Shown piece by piece: positions 60,524 to 63,753 of a stretch of 64,000 bases of DNA. This DNA is from Desulfovibrio sp. TomC. GTDB taxonomy: Bacteria > Desulfobacterota > Desulfovibrionia > Desulfovibrionales > Desulfovibrionaceae. The stretch lies in contig NZ_JSEH01000004.1 in assembly GCF_000801335.2 (NCBI RefSeq), positions 186,001 to 250,000 of the forward strand, given 5' to 3'. Under the pieces are notes generated by a model. It searched no databases. It saw only the letters and a list, made by a program, of their open reading frames with translations, and had not been told where the DNA came from. The position numbers and the translations under genes were made by a program. The stretch's first letter is position 1; every line of letters starts with the position of its first letter.

Positions 60524-61378
60524 TTACACCGCAAAGCGCAGTCCCGGTACGGCCCGGATCAGGCCGAGTTCGCGGCAGTGGTGGGCAAAAAGCAGGAGGC
60601 TGGCTGCTGCGGCGGCGTCGAAGTCGTAGTTGACCACCCGGAAATAGGCGAGGAGCGCTTCGGCTGAAATCCAGTCCGGCAGCGACGGGGCGCGAACCAG
60701 CCCGGGCAGGCGCTTGGGCAGGTCGTTATTGATTGCCACAAGGGCGCGACGCACCCGGTCAAGCGTGGCCAGCGGCCGTCCGGCCAGGCCCTCGCGCACG
60801 ATCCACAAGGCAAAGACAAACGGCGTGCCGGCGAACTCCTGCCAGGCCTGGCCGAGGTCGATCACGTGCCAGCCCGGGGGCGGCGCGAGGTAGAGGCGCA
60901 GGGCCAGATCGCCGATTTCCACAAAGGGCATGCCCCGGTCAAAGCCGGTGCCCGGAGCCACCAGTTCGAAGCGGGGTTCGCTGTAGCCCCAGGCAAAACG
61001 CCACAGCACCCGGAGCAGGGCATTGGAACTGGCCGAGGCCCCGGAAAGCTGGATGGCCCCGCCGGTTTGGGCCAGATGGTCCGGCAGCTCGGCCAGGGGG
61101 ACGGGCGAGAGGAGCAGCACGCTCTGGATGGGGCCGGCGGCCGCCCGGATGCACAGGTCGGGCAGCAGGGTGAAGGCGGCCGGATCGGCCAGATAGGCAA
61201 AGGCCGAGGCCGGAGCGGCGTCGATGGTTCCGTTGGCCAGCGCCGTGTTGAGTTCGGCTGGATGGCCGGGGACATAGGTGAGGTCCGGGCCTTCGGGAAA
61301 GGCCGGGATCAGGGCTTCGTAGAGCGGCCAGACGTTTAAGTAGGCGATGCGGCCGAGCTTTAAGGGGGCGCTTTCCAT
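60524..61378 (-). CDS. mqnA: Chorismate dehydratase (menaquinone, futalosine pathway)
   Basis: 284 aa from MESAPLKLGRIAYLNVWPLY with AAGGAG upstream. MqnA pattern: LGRIAYLNVWPLYEAL (about 7-22), PGHPAELNTALANGTIDAAP, SVLLLSPVP and LSGASASSNALLRVL (about 112-126), and FVEIGDLALRL. Dehydrates chorismate to 3-enolpyruvoylbenzoate in the futalosine route. Located 78 bp downstream of adk, separated by the adk terminator. Confidence 0.9.
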   Translation of the reverse strand: MESAPLKLGRIAYLNVWPLYEALIPAFPEGPDLTYVPGHPAELNTALANGTIDAAPASAFAYLADPAAFTLLPDLCIRAAAGPIQSVLLLSPVPLAELPDHLAQTGGAIQLSGASASSNALLRVLWRFAWGYSEPRFELVAPGTGFDRGMPFVEIGDLALRLYLAPPPGWHVIDLGQAWQEFAGTPFVFALWIVREGLAGRPLATLDRVRRALVAINNDLPKRLPGLVRAPSLPDWISAEALLAYFRVVNYDFDAAAAASLLLFAHHCRELGLIRAVPGLRFAV

Positions 61379-61394: not shown

Positions 61395-61432
61395 AAAAAA
61401 ACGCGGCCCCGAGGGTATTCCCCCCGGGGCCG
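61395..61432 (-). terminator. Terminator of adk
   Basis: CGGCCCCG/CGGGGCCG stem (61404-61432) followed on the minus strand by TTTTTTT, 25 bp after the adk stop. Confidence 0.85.
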
Positions 61433-61456: not shown

Positions 61457-62128
61457 CTAGTCGAGCTGGGCCAACAGCGTTTCCTTAATGGAATCGATGG
61501 TGCCTTCGCCGTTAAGCTCGATGTACTTGGTCAGGCCCTTGGCGGCCAGATCCTTGTAGAAGTAGGCAGCGGCCAGGGTGCCGGTCTTGGTGTCGTAGTA
61601 AATGTCGTGACGCTTGCCGATGGCGGCTTCGTCCAGGTCGTCGGAGCGGCTTTTCAGCGCGCCGCCGCACACCCGGCAGACATCGCCATTGGGCTTGATG
61701 GCGTCAATGAAGATGTTGTTGGGGTGGTTGGGATCATTGGCGCACAGGCGACGGCCCATGATGCGGTTTTTGGCCACTTCCCGGGGCAGCAGGATCTCGA
61801 TGACGTAATCGAGCTTCATGCCTTCCTTCTGCAGGGCTTCCCAGAGCTTCTCGGCCTGAACCATGTTGCGCGGGAAACCGTCGAGCAGCCAGCCGTTGCC
61901 GCCCTTGGCCTTCAAGGTCTCAAGGATCATGGGGATGGTGATGTCGTCGGGGACCAGCTCACCCTTGTCGATGAACGCTTTGGCCTTCATGCCAAGTTCG
62001 GTGCCGCCGCCGATATGTTCGCGGAAGATCGCCCCGGACTCGATGTGGGCCAGATTGTACTTCTTTTTCACCAGGGAACCCTGGGTGCCCTTGCCGCTGC
62101 CGTTGGGACCAAAAGTGAGGATATTCAC
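61457..62128 (-). CDS. adk: Adenylate kinase, Zn/Co-binding LID type
   Basis: 223 aa from a GTG (VNILTFGPNGSGKGTQG) with GGAGG 8 nt upstream, nested in frame within the tilS-adk frame. P-loop GPNGSGKGT (about 7-15), GFPRN and the AMP-binding region. The LID holds CANDPNH and CRVC (Cys-x5-His ... Cys-x2-Cys), the metal site known from the Desulfovibrio gigas zinc/cobalt adenylate kinase. Essential phosphotransfer 2 ADP to ATP plus AMP. Own terminator follows. Confidence 0.92.
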   Translation of the reverse strand: MNILTFGPNGSGKGTQGSLVKKKYNLAHIESGAIFREHIGGGTELGMKAKAFIDKGELVPDDITIPMILETLKAKGGNGWLLDGFPRNMVQAEKLWEALQKEGMKLDYVIEILLPREVAKNRIMGRRLCANDPNHPNNIFIDAIKPNGDVCRVCGGALKSRSDDLDEAAIGKRHDIYYDTKTGTLAAAYFYKDLAAKGLTKYIELNGEGTIDSIKETLLAQLD

Positions 62129-63265
62129 CGGGACTGCCTCCATGTTTGATTTTTCACAATCGGCCTCATTACCCCCGCGGGCCAGCCCTGTCAATGGTGA
62201 TTCCCGTCCGGGCCGACCATTCGGCTGCCGGGAAAAGACCAGACCTTCGGGGGTAATGCGGGCTGCCTTGCCGCCTGGAAACTGAAATATGCGGCCGGTG
62301 GCCCGGCGGTTGACCGCGTCGTCCAGGGCGAAGAGTCCGTCGGCCAGGGCCTGACCCGGACCCAGCGCGGCCAGGGCTCGGCGGTAGAGCCGCAACCGGG
62401 TGGCCGGGTGGGCGGTTGCCAGAAGCGATCGGGATAATCGGGTCGGGTCCGGGACCGGCGGCAGGGTGGTGGCGAAGAAGTCGGCATCCAGGCGGGCCTG
62501 CTGCCAAAGGCGGGCGGCCGCGCCCAGGTAGCGGGGATTTTCGGCCAGGGCGGCCGGCAGCATGGTTTGGCGCACGCGGTTTCGCAGAAAGGCCGGGTCG
62601 GTGTTGGACGGGTCGCAAAGCGTCCGCAGTTTGAGGGCGGCCACAAAGGCGTCGATGGCCCTTCGGGGCGTGAGCAACAGCGGCCGCAGGATGCGCCGGT
62701 CCGGATCGACGGCGGGCATGCCGCCCAGGGCCGGCCAGCCTGCGCCGCGCGTCAGGCGCATGAACTGGTCCTCGGCCAAGTCGTTTAACTGGTGGCCGGT
62801 CAGGGTCCAGGCGTTGGGAGAGGCGGCACGCAGCTCGCTGAAAAAGGCATAGCGGGCCTGCCGGCCGGCGTCTTCCAGGCCGGTGCGGCTCTCCCGGGCC
62901 AGGGCGGCCACATCGGTGCGGCAGGTGTGCAGGGAAACCCCCAGCCCCTGGCACAGGGCCTGGACCGCCTGGACTTCGGCTGCGGACTGCGGGCGCAGGC
63001 CATGGTCGAGATGGGCCGCAACGAGGTTGGCCAGGCCAAGGCGCGGAGCCAGGACCACAGCCATGGCGAGCAGGGCCGTGGAATCCGGCCCGCCGGACAG
63101 GGCCACGATCCAGGTCGCGCCGGCCGGATCGTGGCCGCATGGGCCGGTCAGAAACCGGGCCACAGCCAGACTCAGCCGGGCGGCCCGGGGGGGCAGCGCG
63201 GCCAGGGTCAGGCGGCTATCCGGGGCTGGGGCCGGAGACGGATCAGGCGGCGAAGTGGTGTGCAT
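61457..63265 (-). CDS. tilS: TilS-Adk continuous reading frame (tRNA-Ile-lysidine synthase joined to adenylate kinase)
   Basis: 602 codons from MHTTSPPDPSP. Residues about 45-380 are a TilS: ATP-PPase loop ALSGGPDSTALL (about 53-64), HLDHGLRPQSAAE, LTGHQLNDLAEDQFMRLTRG and RPLLLTPR, which makes lysidine at position 34 of tRNA-Ile. No stop follows; the frame passes GLARGGNEADCEKSN straight into adenylate kinase. Out-of-frame TAA and TGA lie exactly at the junction (about 62170), where a TilS stop would be expected. So this is either a true fusion, or a one-base change (biological or sequencing) that removed the tilS stop. adk also has its own start, described separately. Confidence 0.7.
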   Translation of the reverse strand: MHTTSPPDPSPAPAPDSRLTLAALPPRAARLSLAVARFLTGPCGHDPAGATWIVALSGGPDSTALLAMAVVLAPRLGLANLVAAHLDHGLRPQSAAEVQAVQALCQGLGVSLHTCRTDVAALARESRTGLEDAGRQARYAFFSELRAASPNAWTLTGHQLNDLAEDQFMRLTRGAGWPALGGMPAVDPDRRILRPLLLTPRRAIDAFVAALKLRTLCDPSNTDPAFLRNRVRQTMLPAALAENPRYLGAAARLWQQARLDADFFATTLPPVPDPTRLSRSLLATAHPATRLRLYRRALAALGPGQALADGLFALDDAVNRRATGRIFQFPGGKAARITPEGLVFSRQPNGRPGRESPLTGLARGGNEADCEKSNMEAVPVNILTFGPNGSGKGTQGSLVKKKYNLAHIESGAIFREHIGGGTELGMKAKAFIDKGELVPDDITIPMILETLKAKGGNGWLLDGFPRNMVQAEKLWEALQKEGMKLDYVIEILLPREVAKNRIMGRRLCANDPNHPNNIFIDAIKPNGDVCRVCGGALKSRSDDLDEAAIGKRHDIYYDTKTGTLAAAYFYKDLAAKGLTKYIELNGEGTIDSIKETLLAQLD

Positions 63266-63417
63266 AGGGGGCGGCCCATGGTGGGGGCAAAGCGTAGCCG
63301 GGGTGGTTGCGCCTGTGGGCTGCACCCGGGGCCTGCCTGGCCCGCCCCGGCACAGCGGGAGAAGAAGGCGCTTTGAGCGCCCTGGAAAACGCCAAAGCAT
63401 CTTCCAGGGCCTTGGGC

Positions 63418-63753
63418 CTAGGCCGGAATGTCAAGTTCCCGGATGAAGTTGTCCAGGAAATCGATCATTTGCTGGCGCTGCTCCGGGGTGCAGTAGCTGA
63501 TGCAGGAACAACGCAGTTTGCCGCGGCCGCGCACGAGCAGTTCGAGCTTGAGCCAGTTGCGGCCGGTTTCCAGGACGAGCATGTAGGGTCCGCACTCGTC
63601 ATAGTGCTGCTGTTGTTCGTCGTTGAGCATCTCCTGGGGGAAGGGGATGTAGTAAATATGGTCAAGCGGCCCCTTGAAGCCTTTTTCGGCCAGGTTGCGC
63701 TCGATCTGCTCCATATTGTCGGCGGATACTTCATCGATCAGATAGGATCGCAT
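63418..63753 (-). CDS. Small conserved-looking protein of unknown function
   Basis: 111 aa from MRSYLIDEVSADNMEQIERN. Soluble, acidic, with IYYIPFPQEMLNDEQQQHYD in the middle and CSCISYCTPEQRQQMIDFLD near the end (three Cys in a C-x-C-x4-C run). No domain recognised. It begins 3 bp after the probable hemA stop and is probably in the same operon. Confidence 0.75.
   Translation of the reverse strand: MRSYLIDEVSADNMEQIERNLAEKGFKGPLDHIYYIPFPQEMLNDEQQQHYDECGPYMLVLETGRNWLKLELLVRGRGKLRCSCISYCTPEQRQQMIDFLDNFIRELDIPA

Follow-up and report, generated by a model that had tools for sequence, protein, structure and literature searches.

The open reading frame shared by tilS and adk in Desulfovibrio sp. 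TomC and the promoter-like DNA at its junction

Two housekeeping genes, tilS for lysidine synthetase and adk for adenylate kinase, lie in one stop-free reading frame in the 64,000-nucleotide stretch of Desulfovibrio sp. TomC DNA analysed here (the window). This raises the question of whether the frame is a sequencing error, a gene for a bifunctional enzyme, or neither of the two. The open reading frame list gave a frame of 647 aa from its first ATG (61457-63400, minus strand). Counted from the ATG of tilS at 63265 to the TAG at 61457, it consisted of 602 codons with no stop in between, just as the original prediction had described. The locus is composed of the following parts.

61457-63265, minus strand: TilS-Adk run-on open reading frame, 602 codons and TAG (open reading frame list, Pfam and curated profile matches)
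62228-63265, minus strand: TilS part, residues 1-346, with the PP-loop domain at 52-233 and the QFPGGK motif at residue 328
62129-62227, minus strand: linker, residues 347-379, whose DNA also holds the promoter-like and operator-like elements and the ribosome site of adk; disorder predicted at 349-377
61457-62128, minus strand: adk of PRK14529 type, 223 codons counted from a separate GTG start; 2xb4 and 3l0p are its best matches among solved structures
61404-61432, minus strand: terminator-like hairpin 3' of adk, 12 pairs and a T tail
60524-61378, minus strand: menaquinone biosynthesis family gene (PF02621), next downstream of adk, past the hairpin

The shared frame and its recurrence

Both enzyme families were matched in this frame. 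The TilS domain PF01171 was located at residues 52-233, and TIGR02432, the profile for the N-terminal lysidine synthetase domain of TilS, scored 148.6 bits against a curated cut-off of 93.6. The TilS part is a lysidine synthetase by family match, with predicted lysidine-forming activity on tRNA-Ile(CAU). Adenylate kinase was matched in the same frame by PF00406 and by NF011102/PRK14529, the latter at residues 380-601 with 428.2 bits (cut-off, 331), covering positions 1-222 of the 223 in the profile. The length of an open frame alone is weak proof, because a non-TilS frame upstream of adk is also open for 422 codons in the GC-rich DNA of locus L011. The shared frame is credible because both families match within it and further species have the open junction as well, and it was thus confirmed.

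TilS is presumably essential, and only one match in the genome exceeded the TIGR02432 cut-off, the four weaker ones below it scoring 67.6, 56.4, 23.1 and 22 bits; a single Adk match was obtained. Directly 5' of tilS lies an open reading frame of 111 aa (63418-63753, minus strand), for which the Pfam search returned zero matches. Terminator-like sites such as the hairpin 3' of adk are weak by count, since shuffles gave 2.0 (sd 1.6) of them and the stretch three.

A search of 348 genomes of the class with a profile of the joined protein detected uninterrupted TilS-Adk frames in at least 14 genomes; the other matches listed as spanning both domains contained stops. The run-on genomes were 9 of the 13 Solidesulfovibrio with a readable junction (L001-L013; the fourteenth genome, G010, begins inside adk), all three of the genus g41 and 2 of the 15 of g20, a distant genus. 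In the family set, Adk was found in 232 of 247 drawn genomes. Frames of more than 500 codons open across adk occurred in Solidesulfovibrio, in g41 (3/3) and in the g20 genomes G155 and G147; TilS was in frame with adk in the latter two, as confirmed by reading the DNA, and the long frame across adk was not that of TilS in G003 and G005 of Solidesulfovibrio. For G050 and G109, the profile search gave open frames of 793 and 920 versus 332 and 344 in the family survey, and reading the DNA favoured the short values. Among 395 drawn genomes of the phylum (17 from the family of the window), 87 matched at E<=1e-90, a threshold that could miss distant cases; run-ons were found in the window genome and the three g41 genomes and in no others. 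A fusion limited to Solidesulfovibrio was considered and rejected, as the run-on also occurs in g41 and g20. In the metagenome-assembled Solidesulfovibrio genome G008 (L013/L015), adk is split into two frames near codons 179-194, giving two Adk matches and an open length of 194, which may be an assembly error.

The recurrence bears directly on the possibility that an ordinary tilS-adk pair was joined by a frameshift error in sequencing or assembly. Such a single-base error had been suspected in the original prediction, and both other frames indeed hold stops at the junction. However, the same open junction was present in at least 13 genomes besides that of the window, two of them (G011 and G080) in one contig, and the promoter-like box, the operator-like repeat and the ribosome site described below were invariant in Solidesulfovibrio. 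The relatives sharing the open junction refute the error, to which we give next to no weight. A shifted frame in relatives, which had been named as grounds for refuting the shared frame, was detected in 4 of the 13 Solidesulfovibrio, but these cases are species differences lying beside relatives that share the fusion.

Promoter-like DNA of adk in the 3' end of tilS

The DNA between the conserved part of tilS and the start of adk carries the following elements.

62189-62194, minus strand: -35 box TTGACA; its TGA is the end of tilS in phase-2 species and is read here as part of Leu-Thr
62166-62171, minus strand: -10-like box TAATGA, 17 nt past the -35 box; its TAA/TAG is the end of tilS in phase-1 species
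62142-62159, minus strand: TTGTG-N8-AACAT, a repeat resembling the Rex operator, the right arm of which is degenerate
62137-62141, minus strand: Shine-Dalgarno-like GGAGG of adk, read from the DNA and conserved in the genus

The elements thus lie in the order TTGACA, 17 nt, TA-box, Rex-operator-like repeat, GGAGG and the GTG of adk (62128-62126, minus strand). Of the 105 family loci that were fetched, 87 had TTGACA no more than 90 nt from the start of adk (2.0 expected in shuffles), including loci where tilS ends earlier; the promoter-like DNA at adk is conserved independently of the fusion. Among 58 non-redundant loci picked for having TTGACA, TA was located at +23 of the box (17-nt spacing) in 46 and at +24 (18 nt) in 11, and the third place of the TA-box was A or G in 76%, giving TAA or TAG. 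A GGAGG-like site and a start codon often followed the Rex-like repeat in the sampled family loci. Compared with a sigma-70-type promoter (TTGACA, 16-18 nt and a TATAAT-like box), TTGACA and the TA at 17 or 18 nt are strongly conserved in these loci, and conservation in the rest of the -10 box is weak. A consensus sigma-70 scan of the window stretch reported no promoter at adk, where the -10 box departs from the consensus after TA; the scan misses TAATGA because it demands T at position 6. TTGACA and the TA-box are treated here as a candidate sigma-70-type promoter, which would be active in the transcription of adk.

The Rex operator of Staphylococcus aureus is given as TTGTGAA-W4-TTCACAA (PMC2883068). 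When arms were scored by this consensus as TTGTG and CACAA with a spacing of 8 or 9, 71 of the 105 loci had 8 or more of the 10 arm bases, compared with 5.35 in shuffles. The score was 8 in Solidesulfovibrio, and 5 and 7 in the two g20 run-on loci, which show no clear Rex-like operator. The genome has a match over the cut-off to PF06971, a family of N-terminal DNA-binding domains that includes the one of Rex. The half-degenerate operator pattern occurred six times in the genome, a count that proves nothing because the reversed control gave three. One of the six sites is the clean palindrome TTTGTGA-N6-TCACAAA (L152, G000:C6:61123-61139), a candidate Rex site 5' of an open reading frame whose product presumably resembles HndA/NuoE, a subunit of NAD(P)-linked hydrogenases. 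In D. vulgaris, sat is reported to be repressed by Rex (PMC7531388). Rnf and many sulfate-reduction genes are described as coregulated by Rex in PMC4215793, which also lists adenylate kinase as one of the genes that sulfate activation requires but that lack fitness data. Rex control of adk in Solidesulfovibrio, by binding of Rex to the repeat, is plausible. In three loci with no tilS in the fetched flank (L025, L033 and L048), adk keeps TTGACA at a distance of 84 nt, the repeat ends in GCACAA or GCGCAA, and the leader before the start codon is longer.

The two g20 run-on loci have a longer linker of their own, 60 nt from TTGACA to GTG and a long branch in the tree. Taken together with the absence of a clear Rex-like site, these features suggest, as the simplest reading, two or more origins of the run-on.

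Reading phases and constraint at the junction

Because TTGACA holds TGA and the TA-box often starts with TAA or TAG, tilS tends to be terminated within the promoter-like DNA in two of the three frames. The third continues into adk, since the distance from TTGACA to GTG is a multiple of three, both in the window type (66 nt) and in g20. Indeed, where tilS reached the box (34 of the 105 loci), it stopped at the TGA of TTGACA in 8, at the TAA/TAG of the TA-box in 11 and in the spacer in 1, and ran into adk in 14. In the other loci, tilS stopped before the box (37), was present with no TTGACA (5) or was absent from the fetched flank (29, with a short flank in some). The 105 loci are not random, and these counts are not population frequencies because every known run-on locus was fetched and the others only in part. 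In L062 and L064, tilS terminates at the TGA of a box that lacks its last letter (TTGAC); both were counted among the loci with no TTGACA.

The original prediction had placed the expected end of tilS at GGTAATGAGG (62173-62164, minus strand), with TAA and TGA in the two other frames. Both stops are present, within the TAATGA box of adk, but the position does not correspond to the end of tilS in relatives: in the four Solidesulfovibrio members without the run-on, tilS ends at the TGA within TTGACA, 22 nt before this sequence.

We consider it very probable that the run-on is a recurrent, tolerated and roughly neutral by-product of a tilS end overlapping promoter-like DNA of adk. The 3' end of tilS would overlap the promoter, the Rex-like operator and the ribosome site of adk, the letters of which would be fixed by regulation, so that a tilS reaching them would stop only where they happen to spell a stop. 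This would be TGA within TTGACA in one phase and TAA/TAG in the TA-box in the second, and in the third, where neither is read, ribosomes would carry on into adk and produce a chimera from the tilS mRNA. Length changes in the little-constrained tail of tilS would shift species among the phases, and free Adk would be supplied from the adk promoter and GTG, perhaps under the control of Rex.

At the junction, TTGACA, the 18-nt operator and GGAGGC were invariant at all codon positions in the nine run-on and three non-run-on Solidesulfovibrio compared (L013 was left out because its adk is broken), and adk started with GTG in 13 of 13 loci. The separate start of adk, a GTG with GGAGG, that had been read from the window alone is therefore borne out in the genus. 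The last 45 nt of the tilS tail showed identities of 56, 57 and 57% at codon positions 1, 2 and 3 (seven species with equal tail length), and adk showed 96, 96 and 83% (nine run-on species). The first 30 nt of that tail were coding-like (66, 76 and 52%), which fits the end of TilS. The tilS tail in Solidesulfovibrio is without a codon-position signature, and in our reading the junction is probably fixed by regulation rather than by the protein. In the 13 aligned run-on proteins, Leu-Thr, corresponding to TTG ACA, stood at the joint in every row, and a nearby Asp was also invariant.

The distance from the QFPGG-like motif to TTGACA was 75 nt in seven of the 13 Solidesulfovibrio species, which may reflect weak constraint on length or frame. 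It was 84 nt in L007, which runs on, and 83 nt in its sister L008, which stops. L010, L011 and L013 also had 83 nt and a stop, and L012 had 96 nt and a run-on, grouping with L013 (support 94/96) beside L010 and L011. This distribution suggests losses of the run-on, and perhaps one regain, within Solidesulfovibrio. By our own estimate, on a small number, about five changes in tail length took place, at least three of them frame-shifting, which is near the two thirds expected without selection. The TilS of L003 (G001) has an extra proline-rich insert of approximately 45 residues before the C-terminal part.

These data can be set against a selected bifunctional enzyme, in which the fused Adk recycles the AMP from TilS, as the original prediction had put forward, or the fusion tethers both enzymes. 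Such selection would account for the presence of the fusion in all of g41 and in most of Solidesulfovibrio, its separate appearance in g20, the many invariant residues that both domains keep in the 13 aligned run-on proteins, and the equal tail length in seven species. In g41 (three species), the 60 nt that precede the box were also coding-like (80, 83 and 65% at positions 1, 2 and 3), a pattern that does not decide because these 60 nt reach back into the conserved TilS motif. On the other hand, the fusion was not kept throughout the clade: L008, L010, L011 and L013, including close relatives of run-on species, are without the shared frame, so that the frame differs even between sisters. The tail in Solidesulfovibrio shows no codon-level constraint, its length changes shift the frame about as often as they would unselected, and the start of free Adk is kept, which would make the tethered copy a minor share. 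No positive support was thus obtained for AMP recycling by the fused Adk; there is little evidence for the bifunctional enzyme besides its persistence, any benefit of coupling is hypothetical, and we regard this explanation as unlikely.

Predicted products and comparison with known systems

If tilS is tolerated as a run-on, its mRNA would be translated into a 602-residue TilS-linker-Adk chimera, the only clear TilS of the genome, and the separate promoter and GTG would give a free Adk of 223 residues. The AlphaFold model of the chimera (13 sequences) had a mean pLDDT of 77.4 and a pTM of 0.51, with pLDDT below 50 in the linker at 349-377 and low confidence also in parts of Adk around 502-543. 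The model suggests that TilS and Adk form two independently folded parts with a disordered linker in between. The linker DNA has runs of five A (62150-62154) and five G (62172-62176, minus strand) next to stops in the other frames, which are candidate slippage sites.

The chimera might hardly accumulate if ribosomes slipped, or stalled at the internal ribosome site, or if the linker were cleaved, any of which could free TilS. The predicted disorder of the linker, its internal GGAGG and its five-G and five-A runs are consistent with this, as a slip at the G run just before TAATGA would at once meet TAA or TGA. The five-G run is, however, missing in some run-on species such as L004 and L006, and scarcity of the chimera appears rather improbable to us. 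It is compatible with a neutral run-on, and the confidences placed in the two overlap. A more far-reaching picture combines a sole lysidine synthetase that is obligatorily a TilS-Adk chimera, free Adk from a Rex-controlled promoter in the tilS tail, promoter letters serving as stops, linker codons and regulatory DNA, and a function of the chimera, e.g. local AMP removal, in some lineages; as a whole, we hold it to be doubtful.

A literature search for TilS-Adk or any other TilS fusion, covering titles and the openings of abstracts, returned none recognised as TilS-Adk. In the TilS-HprT fusions of some Firmicutes, a neighbouring gene likewise supplies the protein to which TilS is fused, but the partner and the phylum are different. 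The HGPRT/adenylate kinase of Zobellia galactanivorans, described as a bifunctional protein that was expressed and characterised (PMC7326950), resembles TilS-Adk in joining an N-terminal enzyme to adenylate kinase in one chain and differs in the partner enzyme, which is not TilS. The sulfate-reduction genes of Desulfovibrio reported to be under Rex, such as sat in D. vulgaris (PMC7531388, PMC4215793), would have regulation by the repressor Rex in common with the present locus, where the control of adk is predicted from sequence.

The preferred reading, a neutral run-on through an overlapped promoter, gives a readable account of how a gene fusion can arise and be lost, with stops in two frames and the fusion in the third. 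As TTGACA always holds TGA and the TA-box often begins with TAA or TAG, the same may hold for other pairs of genes that are tightly packed. Where two housekeeping genes have an open reading frame in common, this may be due to something other than an error or selection for a bifunctional enzyme. The mechanism predicts a TilS of approximately 65 kDa in some species and of approximately 38 kDa in their close relatives (length estimates). De novo protein C-termini arise by stop loss and frameshift. As in the cases reported in PMC4494051, DNA past the end of a gene has turned coding here, but the new C-terminus consists of promoter-like DNA followed by a whole enzyme, and it varies between sister species.
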